26,552 nt of DNA from a virus. Position 1 is the first letter of the stretch. The number at the start of each line of letters is the position of its first letter. The notes beneath the pieces are model-generated. The model saw nothing but the letters and a program-made list of their open reading frames with translations, was not told where the DNA came from and did not search any database. Made by a program: the position numbers and the translations under genes. Shown piece by piece: positions 1,363 through 25,203 of this stretch. Where the stretch lies: positions 1 through 26,552 of IMG/VR virus record IMGVR_UViG_3300021165_000974. One strand, given 5' to 3'.

Positions 1363-1617
1363 ATGACTACACATAACGGAAAACGTGTTACCCAACGAGG
1401 TGGCATGGATGGCGAATACGGTAAAGTATACGCAAATGGAAAAGCACAACCTAGATGGGTTATGGAAAAAATGACTGACGATTATGCAGATGAGCAAACA
1501 GGGCAACATGCCTGGGGCGTAACTGATACACATACTAAAGGTTATGGTCATGACACTTTTGACACACACGAAAAAGCAGTTCGTTATGCTGAAGAAATGA
1601 ACAACAGACAAGCCTAA
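1363..1617 (+). CDS. hypothetical hydrophilic protein, 84 aa
   Basis: ATG follows the SpoVS stop by 9 bases with AAGGA as ribosome binding site. The product is polar, with Gly-rich N-terminus and a C-terminal helix (HEKAVRYAEEMNNR) of the kind that ends small alpha/beta proteins. No family recognised. It has no cysteine and no membrane segment. It belongs to the same transcript as its neighbours. Confidence 0.6.
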   Translation: MTTHNGKRVTQRGGMDGEYGKVYANGKAQPRWVMEKMTDDYADEQTGQHAWGVTDTHTKGYGHDTFDTHEKAVRYAEEMNNRQA

Positions 1618-2586: not shown

Positions 2587-2823
2587 ATGCCAAGAGGTAA
2601 AGATTCCAGAGACCATCCAGGTCGCCGCCCAGTTGACCCACGTATTACGTATAGTCAAGACACTGACGAAGCACCAGCGCATGGTATTCCACGCCCCAAT
2701 TCAGATTTTGTAGACAATTCTGCAACTGAAGACTCTTCTGATATTTACACTGAAGGTGAAAAAGATACTCCTGAAGATGCAAAGGAACGTGAAGACCTTA
2801 AAAAAGAACGAGGTCTTTGGTAA
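2587..2823 (+). CDS. tagged small acidic protein, 78 aa (first of the MxRGxD group)
   Basis: It starts with MPRGKDSRDHPGR, which recurs in variant form at the N-terminus of three following genes (3017, 3304, 3510). Beyond the tag the protein is acidic and poor in hydrophobic residues, so largely disordered. The ATG lacks a ribosome binding site and follows a -10-like box, so the mRNA is probably leaderless. Function unknown; the tag may direct these proteins to a common partner, for example the capsid interior. The stop overlaps the next ATG (TAATG). Confidence 0.6.
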   Translation: MPRGKDSRDHPGRRPVDPRITYSQDTDEAPAHGIPRPNSDFVDNSATEDSSDIYTEGEKDTPEDAKEREDLKKERGLW

Positions 2824-3014
2824 TGTCACGCAGAGATTCTTTTGATGATGGACATGGAATGGACCATCACAAACTACATAACATGTTGCGAGTAGCAGGT
2901 GGTGCTGCTATTGGTGCTGCTGGATATGGTCCAATAGGTGCTATTGTAGGTGGCGTAGCAGCGCATGCTACTAATCAGTATTTTGACAAACGTGAAGAAG
3001 AAAACGAGGATTAA
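2823..3014 (+). CDS. small glycine-zipper membrane protein, 63 aa
   Basis: I take ATG at 2823, which forms TAATG with the upstream stop, rather than a TTG six bases earlier. Residues about 24-49 are a Gly/Ala-rich hydrophobic stretch with GxxxG spacing (GAAGYGPIGAIVGG), typical of glycine-zipper segments that insert into or oligomerise within membranes. The flanks are charged and the C-terminus is acidic. It could act on the host membrane at entry or lysis, or be a minor virion protein. The N-terminus MSRRDS weakly resembles the tag of its neighbours. Confidence 0.6.
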   Translation: MSRRDSFDDGHGMDHHKLHNMLRVAGGAAIGAAGYGPIGAIVGGVAAHATNQYFDKREEENED

Positions 3015-3016
3015 TA

Positions 3017-3304
3017 ATGCCTCGTGGAGAAGATACTCGTGACCACCCAAAGCGCCAAGTAGGTCGTCCAAAACCGACCCCGCAGTTTGAATTAAATGAT
3101 AGCCCACAGCAAGTAGCCCGTGACTGGTCACAAGGCAATGATACTGCTTTAGGACGTTTTGCAGCAAAAGGTGAAATCAGTGAAGGTACCTTTGCGGAAA
3201 TTAACAAAACTTTAGATTATGGTGCTCCACATCCTCGTGAAAAAGAACGCCTTACAAACTTGCGTAAGCACTTAGAAGCGCAAAAAGACAACGGGGACCA
3301 ATAA
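3017..3304 (+). CDS. tagged small protein, 95 aa (second of the MxRGxD group)
   Basis: The N-terminus MPRGEDTRDHPKR is nearly the same peptide as in the gene at 2587, but with different codons, so the similarity is held at protein level. The rest is hydrophilic, with a charged helix at about residues 74-90 (REKERLTNLRKHLE). No known domain. ATG is two bases after the upstream stop, and its own stop overlaps the next start (TAATG). Confidence 0.6.
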   Translation: MPRGEDTRDHPKRQVGRPKPTPQFELNDSPQQVARDWSQGNDTALGRFAAKGEISEGTFAEINKTLDYGAPHPREKERLTNLRKHLEAQKDNGDQ

Positions 3305-3513
3305 TGGCACGGGGTCGTGACGAGAGCAAGAACCCTAAGCGCAATCCAGTAGTTGTACGAGATTTGCGTGAGCCTAACGTTTTGTGGGCTAACTTTGCTA
3401 ACCCTTCTGAACCCCACGATTCAGTTAAAGAATATATAATGGAACAAGGAAGAGCGCAATCACGGTTAGCACACCCTTCCAGCGTTCCTAAAACACCTAA
3501 GGATACAGAATGA
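3304..3513 (+). CDS. tagged small protein, 69 aa (third of the MxRGxD group)
   Basis: It begins MARGRDESKNPKR, matching the tag M-x-R-G-x-D...P-x-R. The remainder has a VRDLREPNVLW segment and ends in a polar tail. No family recognised. It overlaps the next gene by four bases (ATGA), consistent with coupled expression at fixed ratios. Confidence 0.55.
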   Translation: MARGRDESKNPKRNPVVVRDLREPNVLWANFANPSEPHDSVKEYIMEQGRAQSRLAHPSSVPKTPKDTE

Positions 3514-3764
3514 CCAGAGGAATTGACGAGCGGAACAACCCCGCAAGAATTGCACACATGATGGCAGAAGAACCGCAAGTTCTTGCTGCTGCTTTGGGTG
3601 CTTACAATGCCATGAATGCAAATAACATTCCAAACTCTCATGACCCAGGTAGCATTGCAGAAATGAACCATGACATGCGGGCAATGAGCCGTATGCAGGG
3701 TACACGCCGTGACATGATTGCGTCTATTGGACAGTCACCACAGGTTGTTGTTGACGGGCAGTAA
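3510..3764 (+). CDS. tagged small protein, 84 aa (fourth of the MxRGxD group)
   Basis: The N-terminus MTRGIDERNNPAR is the fourth copy of the shared tag. The body is rich in Met and Ala (HMMAEEPQVLAAALGAYNAMNANN), predicted helical. No family recognised. The stop overlaps the next ATG (TAATG). Confidence 0.55.
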   Translation: MTRGIDERNNPARIAHMMAEEPQVLAAALGAYNAMNANNIPNSHDPGSIAEMNHDMRAMSRMQGTRRDMIASIGQSPQVVVDGQ

Positions 3765-4069
3765 TGCAAGTTCCGTACAAGCCCAATCAGTCTCACACAG
3801 AGATGCTGGTAGACCAGGCTTTACAATCTTATTTGCTACCTCCAGAACAAATCAGGGCAATCCGCCCGCTTGTTCCTCAGCAATTGTTTCCACAAACTCG
3901 TGGGTTTAACCGTCAAGAAATGACTTTAATGGACGTACTTGATACTCCAAGAACTATGCCAAATTACAGCCGTTGGGTTTCTGGTGCTCCAGTTATGTTC
4001 CGTGATGGTTTTATGGAAGGCAACTTTGAAGGTTCTAGTCGCTACTCAATGCAAGGGTTGTGGGCATAA
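3764..4069 (+). CDS. hypothetical protein, 101 aa
   Basis: Hydrophilic, with a proline-rich middle (RPLVPQQLFPQ) and an aromatic C-terminus ending GLWA. No signal, no cysteine, no family recognised. TAATG overlaps at both ends place it between the tagged group and the large Pro/Gly-rich protein, so a structural or assembly role is plausible but unproven. Confidence 0.55.
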   Translation: MQVPYKPNQSHTEMLVDQALQSYLLPPEQIRAIRPLVPQQLFPQTRGFNRQEMTLMDVLDTPRTMPNYSRWVSGAPVMFRDGFMEGNFEGSSRYSMQGLWA

Positions 4070-5691: not shown

Positions 5692-5742
5692 TAGACAACA
5701 CCACTAGGTATCATGTAAGATACCTTACAGAAACTACTAGGA
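5692..5742 (+). promoter_or_regulatory. promoter with operator-like palindrome and dispersed motif
   Basis: TAGACA (5692-5697) and TAAGAT (5716-5721), spaced 18 bp, form a fair sigma70-type promoter. A perfect 6-bp inverted repeat GGTATC/GATACC (5707-5712 and 5719-5724) overlaps the -10 box. Directly after it comes an exact TTACAGAAACT core (5725-5735), here downstream of -10 rather than upstream of -35. A TAGGAG ribosome binding site follows. The layout suggests repression at this promoter. Confidence 0.5.
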
Positions 5743-6690: not shown

Positions 6691-6970
6691 TGAATATGGG
6701 GGCGTTGGCTCGGAACCATACGGTCCTCCAAAACCACTTGTAATGAACTTTGATGAGTGGATGGCTTACGGTTTGGAACACAGTTTTTGTGGACCCCCTG
6801 TGTGTATTACCCATGATGGTGAACCTATGACAGATGCAGAATACGCAGAATTTGACGAGGGTCACGACCCTTGTATTCACATGATTCGCCCTTATCACGA
6901 TGTTGCAGAACGCCTTATGGTTGAGTCTTCACACTCTGCATCAATTTGGCGCAGGCCAGGTTGGGAGTGA
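6677..6970 (+). CDS. hypothetical protein with INExGGVG N-terminus, 97 aa
   Basis: GTG at 6677 lies inside the preceding gene. Residues 4-20, INEYGGVGSEPYGPPKP, closely match INEQGGVGAKKYGPAKP in the C-terminal part of the Pro/Gly-rich protein at 4069. The rest is acidic, with CGPPVC and a later Cys-Ile-His. The stop overlaps the next GTG (GTGA). No family recognised. Confidence 0.55.
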   Translation: MSQINEYGGVGSEPYGPPKPLVMNFDEWMAYGLEHSFCGPPVCITHDGEPMTDAEYAEFDEGHDPCIHMIRPYHDVAERLMVESSHSASIWRRPGWE

Positions 6971-8406
6971 AAGTCTTTTTCGGAGGGTCGGAAAAAGGTT
7001 CATATCGGCGTATGTTGCTTGACAACAACGTTAAGCACTTTGCTTTAAATCTCACACATTTACCAATTCCTAAAAAGAAGGAATTTGTATTGTCAGACAT
7101 TTTTCAAGGCAACGAAGTGCTCATTTACACTTCTGAAAACGATGAAGATTTAAACCGTTTTGATGATTTTGTACGCAATTACGCAGATGAGATTTCTATT
7201 GTTATTGGTCGCCCTGACTACGATGGCGCATGGTTAGGGGACAAGTATGTCCCCATATGGAATGACGAAACTGACCTAGAACGGCTTGCGTGGCTTTGTC
7301 AAAAGTATGGTCGTGTAGCCATCTCAGACAAGGCTGTAAACCCTCGCAACATGGTCAGGATTCGCCAACTGGCAGCCCGTTGGGGAACTAAACTTATTGG
7401 AATTACCTCCAAGCCTGACCTGATTGAGCACCTCCCTTGGGACGCTGTAGTTGTCAATTCTTGGACATCTGTCATCCGTTATGGGGAAACTCAAATTTGG
7501 GATGGTCATGGTTTGCGCCGTTACCCAGCCCAGCAAAAGGAGTCCGCTCGTAAGAAGCACCGAGCAGATATTGTCCGACTTGATGTAGATATAGTTTCTG
7601 TAATGGAGGATGATGTTGCTACTGTTGGGACGCTTGCTATCCGTTCTTGGCAACAATGGGAAACACACACTTTTGGGGGCTATGACCCTTCTGTGGCGGA
7701 TGACGAAGACGAGTTTGGACCCCCTTCTGACCCCCCAATCATTACTATTGGGGGTGTTACCCCTGTTTCTAAAAATGTGGCTTTGGGGGGGTCAAACATT
7801 ACTACAGACCCCCTAAATGAGCGGCACGAAAGAGGGCGGTCATTACTACCCATAATGGGCATTGAATCTGTAGTGTCTTTAGGTCACAGAACCGTTGGAA
7901 ATGATGGAGAAGAACTAGAAATTGAACCTGAGAAAGTAAACCTTCTCAAATATAATGCTGACCCACTAAGGGAGTGCAATCATTGCTATTTGGCTCCCCG
8001 ATGTCCTCAATTTCACGAAAATGCGACATGTGCGTTTTCTCTTCCTTTGGAGATTAAGTCCAAAGACCAACTTCAGGCTGCTATGAAGGCTCTTTTAGAG
8101 ATGCAAGTAGGTCGTGTGATGTTTGCTCGCTTTGCGGAAGAACTAGAAGGACAGGGTCTTGACTCTAGTCTTTCTACAGAAATTGACCGAGTATTTAACC
8201 TTGTAGAGAAAATGGCTCGTATCAGTGACAACCGAGAAATGCTCCGTATTGAGGTTGAGACTCGTGGGTCTAGCGGAGTGCTTTCCCGACTGTTTGGACA
8301 GAAGGTTGGAGAAACCAGCAAGATGCTCCCTAACGGTGGTTTAAACGAAGAAGCCACCGATGCCCTGTACGCAGACGTTATTGATTTTTCTGAAGACGGT
8401 TCTTGA
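6967..8406 (+). CDS. large phage protein with four-cysteine cluster, 479 aa
   Basis: I choose GTG at 6967 (GTGA overlap) over TTG at 6946. Residues 1-235 look like an alpha/beta domain, possibly a TIM barrel: MKVFFGGSEKGSYRR start, IVIGRPDYDGAW, AISDKAVNP, KLIGITSKPD, WDAVVVNSW. Residues 236-300 are a low-complexity Pro/Gly/Asp linker. Then comes C337-x2-C340-x5-C346-x8-C355 (CNHC...RCPQF...TC), likely binding zinc or iron-sulfur, followed by a long helical region (LLEMQVGRVMFARFAEEL). The barrel-plus-metal layout recalls tRNA-guanine-transglycosylase-like phage proteins, but I see no decisive motif, so I leave the function open. Confidence 0.6.
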   Translation: MKVFFGGSEKGSYRRMLLDNNVKHFALNLTHLPIPKKKEFVLSDIFQGNEVLIYTSENDEDLNRFDDFVRNYADEISIVIGRPDYDGAWLGDKYVPIWNDETDLERLAWLCQKYGRVAISDKAVNPRNMVRIRQLAARWGTKLIGITSKPDLIEHLPWDAVVVNSWTSVIRYGETQIWDGHGLRRYPAQQKESARKKHRADIVRLDVDIVSVMEDDVATVGTLAIRSWQQWETHTFGGYDPSVADDEDEFGPPSDPPIITIGGVTPVSKNVALGGSNITTDPLNERHERGRSLLPIMGIESVVSLGHRTVGNDGEELEIEPEKVNLLKYNADPLRECNHCYLAPRCPQFHENATCAFSLPLEIKSKDQLQAAMKALLEMQVGRVMFARFAEELEGQGLDSSLSTEIDRVFNLVEKMARISDNREMLRIEVETRGSSGVLSRLFGQKVGETSKMLPNGGLNEEATDALYADVIDFSEDGS

Positions 8407-11757: not shown

Positions 11758-11934
11758 ATGTACAGCAAGACATACAAATGTGACTCATGTGATATCCGCC
11801 TTACAGTTGGTGTACCCGTTACAGAAACTCCTACACACCCTTGCTCACGACACGCAAACAAAACGAGGAAACTAATTGAAGTTGAAACTGGGAATAGCCA
11901 GCGGGGACAGAGTCCCACCACAGAGGGCACCTGA
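11758..11934 (+). CDS. small zinc-ribbon-like protein, 58 aa
   Basis: C8-x2-C11 (YKCDSC), C29 and H32 could form one zinc site. The next gene begins 59 bases before its stop, in another frame, so the last 20 residues may be of little importance. An exact core of the dispersed motif (11819-11829) is read here as Val-Thr-Glu-Thr. The strong promoter and near-absent leader support translation from ATG at 11758. Function unknown. Confidence 0.5.
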   Translation: MYSKTYKCDSCDIRLTVGVPVTETPTHPCSRHANKTRKLIEVETGNSQRGQSPTTEGT

Positions 11935-12958
11935 CAACAAAGGTCATTGGGGTGGCGCAGGATGGGTACGCTTAGGACAATACGAACACCTGCTAGAAAC
12001 CGATACTTTTATTGGGACTCTTGTATGGAACAGAACGCACTTCTCTATACAAACCGATGGAGATTCTACGCTCCACGATGTTGACATCATTATCATGCAA
12101 CGACTAATGCATGACACATTGCCTGAACATATGAAGTTGGCACAGAAAGCGGGTCAGATTATCATCAATGACCTTGATGATTGGTACTGGGGACTGGACA
12201 CAACTAACCTTGCCTTTGCTGCAAGTCACCCAAAAACTAGCCCAAAAGAAAACACGAACCATTACAAAAAGGTACTTGCTACAAGCGACAGAATAACTGT
12301 ATCAACACCGTACCTGAGGGACAGGTTGTTAAAAATGTTTAGTAACTGTCCACCCATAGATGTATTACTTAATACTGTTGATGTAAAACGATTTAATATC
12401 CACGAACACATTACAGAAACTAAACCAATTGTTGGATGGGTTGGTTCAACTAACCACAGAAGTGGAGACCTTGAAACTGTTGCTGGGACTATCCCACCAT
12501 TACAGAAACTTGGTTTAATCTCTCTCCAACACAGTGGAGCGCACCCCAACGCACCTTCGCTTGCATCTAAGTGGGACATTACAGAAACTTCTGTAACTTC
12601 TATTCCCGCCACCGACCCTGAGGATTATCCAAACTTACTCACAATGGATATTGGTATTGCTCCACTACGAGACACACCATTCAACCACGCAAAGTCTGAT
12701 ATCAAGATTCTTGAATACTCTGCTTCAGGTATTCCATGGGTTGCTTCGGGACTTCCTGCTTACGAGACATTACAGAAACTTTGGGGAGTTGGCAGAATTG
12801 CCAAAAAGAACAAAGCAAAAGAATGGCAAAAGCACATCACAGCGTTGTGTGACCCACAAGTGCGTGCAGAAGAAGGGCAAGCCCTACGAGAAGCCTCTTG
12901 GTCAAGAGACATCCTCGTAGGTGCTGACACCTTCAACTCTTACTTAAACGCTCTCTGA
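11876..12958 (+). CDS. GT-B (GT4-like) glycosyltransferase, 360 aa
   Basis: TTG at 11876 follows ACGAGG at 8 bases and gives a normal N-terminus (LKLGIASGDRVPPQRA, then GAGWVRLGQY). The C-terminal domain holds the donor-binding features of GT4-type enzymes: MDIGIAPLRDTPFNHAKSD, then IKILEYSASGIPWVAS with the conserved glutamate. Such enzymes transfer a sugar from a nucleotide donor. The RmlB-like enzyme upstream could supply a deoxy-sugar donor, for host surface glycan or virion/DNA decoration. Four exact copies of TTACAGAAACT lie in the gene (12411, 12500, 12579, 12770), read as ITET twice and LQK twice. Confidence 0.8.
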   Translation: MKLKLGIASGDRVPPQRAPDNKGHWGGAGWVRLGQYEHLLETDTFIGTLVWNRTHFSIQTDGDSTLHDVDIIIMQRLMHDTLPEHMKLAQKAGQIIINDLDDWYWGLDTTNLAFAASHPKTSPKENTNHYKKVLATSDRITVSTPYLRDRLLKMFSNCPPIDVLLNTVDVKRFNIHEHITETKPIVGWVGSTNHRSGDLETVAGTIPPLQKLGLISLQHSGAHPNAPSLASKWDITETSVTSIPATDPEDYPNLLTMDIGIAPLRDTPFNHAKSDIKILEYSASGIPWVASGLPAYETLQKLWGVGRIAKKNKAKEWQKHITALCDPQVRAEEGQALREASWSRDILVGADTFNSYLNAL

Positions 12959-22295: not shown

Positions 22296-23900
22296 CTAGA
22301 GGTCTGCGAGGTAGGAGCGCAGGATTGCCATCGCAAGGTTCTCTTCCGAGACCATGGTGTCCACCTCTTCACCGTCCATGACCGCCTTGGCTTCACGGAA
22401 CTTGCCTTCCAGCAATCCCCACAGGCGGTCATCAATCGTGCGGGTGCCATCTGCCTTCACGCCGAGAACCACCTGCGAGCAGACATCACGGGTCTGACCC
22501 TTGCGCAGGAGCCGAGCCTCAGCCTGAACCACATCCATGGAGTTCCACGGGAGTTCAGCGAAGACGATGTGGCGACCCTCGGTCATGGTGAACCCGACCG
22601 AAGCCGAGATGATGTTCGCCACCACGAGGTCGTACTGCTTTGCCTGCCAGCCATCAACCACTGCCTGCTTGGCTTCAGCGGTCATGCCACCGTGGATGGT
22701 CGCAACCTTGAGACCAGCCTTGGTGAAGTGCTCCATGATGGCTTCACGGATGTCGGTGTGGGTAGCCAGCACGAGGATGGGCTCGTGGTCGCCTTCCTCG
22801 GCAGATTCAATCGTCAACTGGATGTGAGCGATGACCGACTCCAACTTTGCCTTGCCGACCAAACGGCGCAGTTCCTGAACACGGATGAGGGCTTCAGCCT
22901 TCATCATGGACTCAGCCTTGGCGTGACCACGGGTGTCAATGAGCCACTGCTCAAGGTCGGTCTCGGCACGCTTGTACTTCTTTGCCCACTCGCCCTGCAA
23001 CTGACCGTCCCGCAGGATGCGTCCCATGTTCGGCAGGTCTGCGATGACATCAGCCGAGCGCACACGATGAGCCCAGCCAGTGATGTCGTGGAACATCTCG
23101 GCGTGCAACTGCTCGGTGTTCGCCTGACCACGGGCACCGTACGAATCCACCGCTGGGGCGAAATGGTCAAGCCAGTCTTTTGCGCTACATGGCTTGCCAT
23201 CAATCGCATGGCGACCGAAAGTGTTGAGACCCTGCATCAACTGGAAGAGACCAACACGGGTCTTGGTGAATGGGGTGCCACTGAGGAGCCATTTCGGCAT
23301 CTCGGTACGGCTGGCGCAGAGGTGAGCGAATGCACGACCACGACCTGCACGACCGCTGGAGACACGCTGGCACTCGTCAACGATGAGCGCATCCACGCCA
23401 CGACCGAAGTCACGGACGAAGTAGTCAGGGATGATGCGGTTGCCGTGGGCATCCTTGGCGTTCTCGTCATCCCATGTGAACTTCTGCTTGCCACCAATGA
23501 ACCAGCGGTTGTACCCATGGAGCGCACCGTCCGTGACGATGAGAACCTGAGCGGTCGGGAGACCCTCGGACTCGGAACCTTCACGGTCAAGCGGGGCACG
23601 CTTGTTGATGATGTCGGTCGTGACCTCAGGAGCCCACTTGGCGAACTCGTTCTTCCAGTTCCATGTCAGCGATGGCGGGCAGACGACCAGCACCTGCTTT
23701 GCGCCGAATGCCAGTGCGGACTGAGCGAGCATGATGCCCGTGATGGTCTTGCCAGTGCCCTGCTCGTGAGCGATGAGGAACTGGCGTTGCTGGGTTGCAC
23801 GCCGAACCACTTCCACCTGATGTGGCATGAGGTCGGGGTGGAACACGGGTTCCATGTGTGCCATGGATTCCCATGACTGGTACGGGGTTGATGCTTTCAT
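22296..23900 (-). CDS. SNF2-type superfamily 2 helicase/ATPase, 534 aa
   Basis: ATG at 23900 follows AGGAGGG; an in-frame start further out lies in the leader. Motifs in order: Walker A EQGTGKT (46-52), motif Ia VVCPPSLTWNW (72-82), motif II DECQ (175-178), motif III LSGTP (206-210), motif IV-like IHGGMT (402-407), motif V VVANIISASVGF (426-437) and motif VI Q459-x3-R463-x2-R466-x2-Q469 (QAEARLLRKGQ). This is the SNF2/Rad54-like group, dsDNA translocases; phage versions remodel DNA or displace proteins in replication or recombination. It is GC-richer than most of the window and the only large minus-strand gene, flanked by GC-rich repeat regions, so it may be a separately acquired cassette. 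Confidence 0.9.
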   Translation of the reverse strand: MKASTPYQSWESMAHMEPVFHPDLMPHQVEVVRRATQQRQFLIAHEQGTGKTITGIMLAQSALAFGAKQVLVVCPPSLTWNWKNEFAKWAPEVTTDIINKRAPLDREGSESEGLPTAQVLIVTDGALHGYNRWFIGGKQKFTWDDENAKDAHGNRIIPDYFVRDFGRGVDALIVDECQRVSSGRAGRGRAFAHLCASRTEMPKWLLSGTPFTKTRVGLFQLMQGLNTFGRHAIDGKPCSAKDWLDHFAPAVDSYGARGQANTEQLHAEMFHDITGWAHRVRSADVIADLPNMGRILRDGQLQGEWAKKYKRAETDLEQWLIDTRGHAKAESMMKAEALIRVQELRRLVGKAKLESVIAHIQLTIESAEEGDHEPILVLATHTDIREAIMEHFTKAGLKVATIHGGMTAEAKQAVVDGWQAKQYDLVVANIISASVGFTMTEGRHIVFAELPWNSMDVVQAEARLLRKGQTRDVCSQVVLGVKADGTRTIDDRLWGLLEGKFREAKAVMDGEEVDTMVSEENLAMAILRSYLADL

Positions 23901-23938
23901 GATGACCCTCCTGTGAGTCGTTTTCGGCTTGTCAGTGC

Positions 23939-23983
23939 GACTCGCCGAAGGCGAGTCTAGGCACGCCCACAACCCAAACACAA
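23939..23983 (-). promoter_or_regulatory. helicase promoter with overlapping palindrome
   Basis: On the minus strand, TTGTGT (23978-23983), 18 bp, TAGACT (23954-23959) form a promoter. A perfect inverted repeat GACTCGCC/GGCGAGTC (23939-23946, 23950-23957) overlaps the -10 box and start site. It could be an operator or a leader hairpin. A plus-oriented motif copy lies just upstream (23998-24008). Confidence 0.5.
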
Positions 23984-24795: not shown

Positions 24796-25203
24796 ATGAG
24801 CCTTTCCAACCATCAATTCGGTGACCTGATACCAAAGTTGGAACAAAGACATGGAGATGATTTCCATGACTCAGTGACCGCATTTGCCCTAGGAACGCCT
24901 AGTGACCCCATGGCGGAGTCCTCCTCATCCTACGACCTACCTATCAGCCGTGCAAGAGTCCCTCTGAGTGCCCTACCAGACCATGGAACTAGTAGTGCTG
25001 CCCGTATCGGTCGTGCGCAAGAGGGATATCGGACCTCCCCATCCTCAGTGCCCCCTATTCTCCTAGTACAGAGAGCAGGAGGGTATGACATTGCTGATGG
25101 TCACCATCGTGTACAAGCCGCTAGGAACCTCGGTAGAGAGCATATCCCTGCTTGGGTGGTGCACAGCCCTCTAAAAGAGCCTCACCCTGGCTTTGACGAC
25201 TGA
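24796..25203 (+). CDS. ParB-like nuclease-fold protein, 135 aa
   Basis: PPILLVQRAGGYDIADGHHRVQAARNLG (86-113) and IPAWVV (117-122) match the ParB/sulfiredoxin N-terminal fold; DGHHR (101-105) corresponds to the (D/G)GxHR nucleotide-binding box. ParB-type folds bind CTP or act as nucleases or kinases, so activity is open. The N-terminal 85 residues are polar and carry no known domain; no DNA-binding domain follows, so this is not a partition protein of the usual kind. The mRNA is probably leaderless. Confidence 0.7.
   Translation: MSLSNHQFGDLIPKLEQRHGDDFHDSVTAFALGTPSDPMAESSSSYDLPISRARVPLSALPDHGTSSAARIGRAQEGYRTSPSSVPPILLVQRAGGYDIADGHHRVQAARNLGREHIPAWVVHSPLKEPHPGFDD

Follow-up and report, generated by a model that had tools for sequence, protein, structure and literature searches.

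What does it mean when neighbouring small proteins of one phage begin alike and then go on differently? The question is raised by a 26,552-nucleotide stretch of viral DNA (IMG/VR record IMGVR_UViG_3300021165_000974, positions 1 to 26,552), referred to here in its entirety as the window, in which a first-pass annotation had noticed four adjacent genes whose products share an N-terminal peptide. We asked whether this peptide is a coincidence, a relic of gene duplication or a signal, and, if a signal, where it might send the proteins that carry it.

Four tagged ORFs in the window

The four ORFs lie on the + strand exactly as annotated, at 2587–2823 (78 aa), 3017–3304 (95 aa), 3304–3513 (69 aa) and 3510–3764 (84 aa), and their starts read, in that order, MPRGKDSRDHPGR, MPRGEDTRDHPKR, MARGRDESKNPKR and MTRGIDERNNPAR. 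The N-terminus common to all four is M-x-R-G-x-D-[TSE]-x-x-[HN]-P-x-R. The annotation had identified the shared start correctly and made it too short: the conserved stretch, hereafter tag A, spans 17 residues rather than 13, as the wider set described below also conserves [VP]15 and R17. It occupies 2587–2637 (MPRGKDSRDHPGRRPVD), 3017–3067 (MPRGEDTRDHPKRQVGR), 3304–3354 (MARGRDESKNPKRNPVV) and 3510–3560 (MTRGIDERNNPARIAHM), of which the tag of ORF 3017 is the most typical, those of ORFs 2587, 3304 and 3510 having the less typical ends PVD, PVV and AHM. The ATG of ORF 3304 overlaps the stop codon of ORF 3017, and ORFs 3304 and 3510 are joined by an ATGA overlap. Between the first and second tagged ORFs lies a small untagged, Gly/Ala-rich ORF (MSRRDSFDDGHGMDHHK, 63 aa; 2823–3014, + strand), which relatives keep as MARRKSFDDGHGMDHHK.

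A DNA pattern encoding M-x-[R]-G-x-D-x-x-x-[HN]-P matched the window exactly four times, at the four ORF starts, and had no match in any of 100 dinucleotide-shuffled windows. A 16-position scoring matrix (PSSM), trained only on the tags of other phages and applied to every 17-residue stretch of the six-frame translation, ranked the same four starts first to fourth (47.1, 29.4, 26.8 and 21.6 bits; next best, 9.0 bits). Chance resemblance or an assembly artefact is refuted by the shuffles and by the recurrence of the tag, in front of different bodies, in about 50 loci that were assembled independently. Nothing was found in its favour; what does look like chance are a few pattern matches in GC-rich contigs (L009, L022, L028, L031, L036, L037, L050, L053 and L056) and one isolated bacterial match, in a Bacteroides MAG (L101), apart from which tag A was absent from cellular genomes.

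Identical residues of paired window tags use the same codon in 14 of 41 cases, compared with 13.7 expected from codon usage alone. The earlier remark that the codons differ is therefore borne out: synonymous sites are saturated, and it is the peptide, not the DNA, that has been conserved. The bodies were likewise unrelated, as had been claimed. With the tag removed, phmmer searches against every ORF of all loci (E <= 1e-3) returned the orthologues of each body and no other window ORF, with one exception, the acidic body of ORF 2587, which shares a short DxDEAPxxGIPRP stretch (DTDEAPAHGIPRP) with tagged proteins of other phages. These searches revealed no full-length homology among the four proteins, which do not form a simple paralogous family; the first-pass annotation had named duplication with such homology as the finding that would overturn its reading. 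The shared stretch itself recurs as a second short motif (approximately D[DE]APxxGIPRP) inside otherwise different tagged proteins, namely those at 2587 in the window, L002 6623, L043 3430, L051 8719, L102 2984 and L105 805.

Extent and properties of tag A

Further loci were gathered by running degenerate DNA patterns over IMG/VR, after which every ORF start in those loci was scored with the PSSM. The scores were bimodal, with approximately 33,700 starts below 8 bits, none between 8 and 12, and approximately 170 above 12. After removal of related bodies, 77 non-redundant small proteins remained (median 84 aa; 3 exceed 150 aa), from about 50 loci, that start with the consensus M-[AP]-R-G-x-D-[TE]-x-x-[HN]-P-x-R-x-[VP]-x-R. 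Conservation stops after residue 17. Within the tag every protein has R13 (77/77), only A, P, S, T or V occurs at position 2, and position 6 is D in 61 proteins and N in 14. Two sub-types can be recognized, one pairing T7 with H10 (43 proteins) and the other E7 with N10 (26 proteins). Hydrophobic residues make up 8% of the tag, and its pI of about 10.9 makes it basic, as against a median pI of 5.2 for the bodies.

Hits above 12 bits fell at start codons 143 times and at other codons 8 times over approximately 1.05 million positions, a contrast that is partly built in, as loci fetched with ATG-anchored patterns favour the start-codon count; the window, which was not fetched with such patterns, has the same placement. 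The search of related genomes that the first-pass annotation proposed found the tag confined, in 40 whole viral records (8 of them 75–101 kb), to one cluster of 1–5 copies per record and nowhere else, and found none in the larger structural proteins of those genomes. In INPHARED, tblastn with a window tagged protein, another tagged protein and the consensus tag as queries gave no tag match.

Exchange of tags between bodies

Unsupervised clustering of N-termini, from which body-homologous pairs had been taken out, recovered tag A (94 proteins) together with two further classes, tag B (21) and tag D (9); pairs with a score of at least 33 numbered 3289, compared with 15 in shuffles. Tag B is of the "HRGxxI" type (e.g. 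MAHDHRMNPVGEP and MPNNHRGAYIAPN) and tag D of the "FRGxxV" type (M-x-x-[FH]-[RN]-G-x-x-V, e.g. MPIFRGMRQNR). The same clustering places in tag D a small window ORF at 1363–1617 (+ strand) with the start MTTHNGKRVTQRGG.

At least four bodies that bear tag A in some phage bear tag B or D in a different one. On the GTYLGxVG body, tag A (L083, L084, L102, L109 and L027) is replaced by tag B/D-type starts in L051 and L043. The PTPRIAGVLESHLN body starts with tag A in L035 but with tag B in L051, and the GYxHPTGPTT body with a variant of tag A in L027 but with tag B in L002/L006; in front of the KAMAQGLQS body stands tag A in L048 and tag D in L051. These swaps cannot be put down to alternative start codons or annotation errors, since the tags are conserved upstream of the aligned bodies. 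That one tag replaces another on the same body is our strongest reason to regard the N-terminus as a functional add-on and the tags as equivalent in what they do. Tag A is an autonomous, exchangeable address peptide: added on, conserved at the peptide level, N-terminal, clustered and swappable. The claim of a shared tag on diverse cargo holds, given the unrelated bodies, the swaps, the placement at start codons and the further cargo found in other phages. We regard it as nearly certain that tag A is a real autonomous tag, and as highly probable that it has a docking or targeting role.

These observations bear on the alternative that the shared start was left behind by tandem duplication or by recombination at gene starts, in which a 5' cassette was copied in front of different bodies and kept for expression or stability, with no targeting role. 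The tagged genes do stand in tandem, with overlapping stop and start codons in 48 of 92 cases, and within contigs the codons of identical tag residues agree more often than expected (0.468 vs 0.355), so that some tags must have been copied recently, such as two in L048 that agree at 12 of 15 codons. However, a relic accounts poorly for window tags that are synonymously saturated with the peptide still conserved, or for proteins lacking full-length homology, and a neutral one does not predict that other conserved tags should replace tag A on the same body. Between orthologues, moreover, amino acids change less often in the tag than in the body (28/204 vs 215/930) and synonymous change is similar (47/176 vs 217/715), a comparison of pairs that are not independent; it points to purifying selection that is stronger on the tag than on the body, though modestly so. 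We consider the relic explanation rather unlikely. A shared 5' DNA element was also considered and rejected: the 20 bases upstream are 35% alike within contigs and 31% between them, no more than expected had the duplicated unit included the leader.

Genome context and relatives

In most contigs, including the window, the tag cluster occupies the interval defined by the genes P163, P101 and P67, beside SpoVS/HJR. In the window P163 lies upstream of the cluster (2081–2572, + strand) and has homologues in the cultured Streptomyces phages BRock (gp48) and GiJojo (gp168), and P101 lies downstream (3764–4069, + strand), its likeness to BRock gp47 having been judged by eye; both flanking genes are conserved. 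A SpoVS-domain protein (PF04232, E 2e-20) is encoded at 1063–1353, is kept beside the tag cluster in relatives and is also present in BRock-group phages. In most genomes, again including the window, the cluster thus lies outside the head module, near RecA/HJR/SpoVS and other genes. In about nine loci (L011, L016, L034, L057, L081 and L086–L089) it occupies a second site, between the terminase and the portal/MCP genes.

In a 97 kb relative (G024), profiles identified a terminase, an HslV-like peptidase, an SPP1-type portal, a major capsid protein (MCP) and fn3-type tail proteins, and sheath-like and tube-like ORFs were judged by eye. The MCP shares 58% identity with that of BRock, GiJojo and other Streptomyces phages. 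The BRock/GiJojo group (Borockvirus) keeps the flanking gene order, with SpoVS-like, P163, P101-like and P67-like genes, and yet has no tagged gene between them: the profile that found the tag in 40 of 40 metagenome contigs found none in four cultured genomes. The carriers of tag A are uncultured contractile-tailed phages, distantly related to Streptomyces phage BRock.

The HslV/proteasome-like peptidase gene of G024 (L093 2956–3588) lies in the terminase–portal interval and adjoins a metallophosphoesterase; its product is a possible maturation protease. A phage enzyme of this kind by the portal might recognize the tag as its substrate, making it a site of cleavage or modification rather than an address. 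The position of the gene between terminase and portal suits this idea, but the peptidase was seen in G024 alone, and we judge the explanation improbable.

Cargo of tagged proteins

Searches of the window ORFs and 40 tagged proteins against Pfam and PHROGs gave no family above cut-off for the bodies and weak zinc-ribbon hits only, and there were no multi-domain matches of the polyvalent type among the tagged proteins, whose median length is 84 aa. One tag A protein, in L106, carries a C-terminal LysM domain (PF01476, E 1e-8, above cut-off), which together with the tag makes up all of its recognizable parts. Two AF2 models of tagged proteins, both of low confidence, gave one all-alpha and one beta body, and roughly the first 30 residues were unstructured in both. 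In the model of ORF 3017 (confidence 59.5) the body forms four helices and the first 29 residues have no secondary structure. A Foldseek search of the PDB with the GTYLG-body model (pLDDT 66) returned nothing below E 0.13, and fold assignment for both models was dropped owing to their low confidence.

A third shared N-terminal class, tag C ([LIV][NS]xxQ[FLM], or LNxxQF), is found on genes that adjoin tag A genes in L055, L082, L103, L106 and L038. Its cargo includes a PARP-like ADP-ribosyltransferase (ART) in L082 (E 2.7e-9), an Arr-type ART in L055 (4.9e-8) and, in another phage, a GNAT in L094 of G024 (2.4e-7). In the window an ORF at 24796–25203 (+ strand) with the start MSLSNHQFGDL is a likely member, its C-terminal part weakly ParB-like. 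ART, GNAT and ParB-like proteins with tag C occur near tail, portal or lysin-like genes (window 24796–25203; L094 13.8–19.9 kb; L055, L038, L082, L103 and L106). ARTs, GNATs and ParB-like domains have been described as effectors that travel with the virion (PMC5512222), and by their domains the tag C cargo look like virion-delivered effectors.

Destination of the tagged proteins

Since tagged genes recur at the terminase–portal site and beside effector-type cargo, a virion component is the most likely partner of the tag, with the cargo packaged. We put the probability that tag A is a capsid- or virion-targeting signal, working much as those of T4 and P1 do, at about one in two, the destination being inferred. 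The first-pass reading is thus supported in part: its shared tag on diverse cargo is confirmed, whereas targeting to the prohead or to some common partner has indirect support only, from the terminase–portal context in other genomes, the LysM cargo and the adjoining effector-type cargo.

The internal proteins of T-even phages are highly diverse, with only a capsid-targeting sequence (CTS) conserved (PMC3012670), and in P1 an N-terminal stretch of > 9 and < 30 residues suffices for DarB (PMC9024508). Tag A is likened to these signals by its arrangement, being a short N-terminal peptide on otherwise unrelated proteins. As in T4, the proteins are small, diverse and unrelated, and the phage is contractile-tailed; unlike in T4, tag A genes form a separate cluster or lie between terminase and portal, several exchangeable tags are in use, and the tag is basic and poor in hydrophobic residues. 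The 17 residues of tag A fall within the range for DarB, but DarB is one protein of 250 kDa, whereas tag A is found on dozens of proteins of 50–140 aa. Polyvalent proteins and other virion-delivered effectors (DdrB-like ParB, ART, GNAT) resemble the adjoining tag C proteins, which carry ART, GNAT and weak ParB-like domains, but the tag A cargo are single small proteins, not multidomain ones. The literature on N-terminal motifs shared across diverse phage proteins yielded signals of the T4/P1 type and nothing on tag A.

Under virion targeting, the initiator Met would be removed first, position 2 always being A, P, S, T or V, and the basic, low-hydrophobicity peptide would stay extended. It would then be recognized by one partner and dock on a component of the assembling virion, for example scaffold, portal or packaged DNA, so that the small, mostly acidic cargo could be packed into the particle and perhaps delivered to the next host cell. 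Several observations speak against this destination: the cluster lies outside the head module in most genomes, the window included; the cultured relatives retain the flanking genes with no tagged gene, and so offer no system for experiments; and a function can be assigned to almost none of the tag A cargo.

The tag could instead dock on a single non-virion partner, such as host RNA polymerase, the ribosome, a host protease or a phage hub protein, with small host-takeover proteins as its cargo. Small size, bodies that are zinc-ribbon-like, all-alpha or beta, and operon-like overlapping genes would suit such proteins, and the window cluster adjoins RecA/HJR-type genes. However, terminase–portal placement in other genomes, the LysM cargo and the neighbouring ART cargo, of the virion-delivered kind, run counter to it, and we consider a non-virion partner unlikely.

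Returning to virion targeting, a broader and tentative proposal is that these phages use interchangeable address tags A (RGxDxxxHPxR), B (HRGxxI), C (LNxxQF) and D (FRGxxV) as a sorting code. Fast-evolving cargo, including ADP-ribosyltransferases and acetyltransferases, would possibly be sent to distinct virion docking sites, and a new effector could arise by placing a tag before a new body.

Other features of the window

The 13-mer CATTACAGAAACT occurs, with at most one mismatch, at 28 window sites compared with 0.04 expected, mostly on the + strand and both between and within ORFs, for example at 5723, 12409, 12498, 12577, 12768, 14645, 15413, 15616, 19510, 22229 and 23996 (+) and at 7593 and 21233 (-). 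Several copies lie in a glycosyltransferase gene (11876–12958) and are kept in relatives L008 and L059. A gene at 6946–8406 encodes a queuine/DpdA-like tRNA-guanine transglycosylase (phrog_887), whose syntenic counterpart in GiJojo is annotated as dpdA-like; it may point to deazaguanine modification of the DNA. Between 19.5 and 25.5 kb the GC content climbs from about 43% to 53–59%, and an SNF2-type helicase is encoded on the opposite strand at 22296–23981.

Significance

For most small phage genes no function can be assigned, and a tag by which a whole class of them can be recognized as cargo provides a sequence handle with which virion-delivered or host-directed effectors may be found in uncultured phages. 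The tag is also a short peptide, directly usable as a candidate packaging or docking signal. N-terminal signals of the capsid-targeting kind are known from a few model phages (T4, P1); if the virion-targeting reading is true, the exchangeable tags of this actinophage-like group would make the capsid-targeting arrangement both more general and more elaborate.
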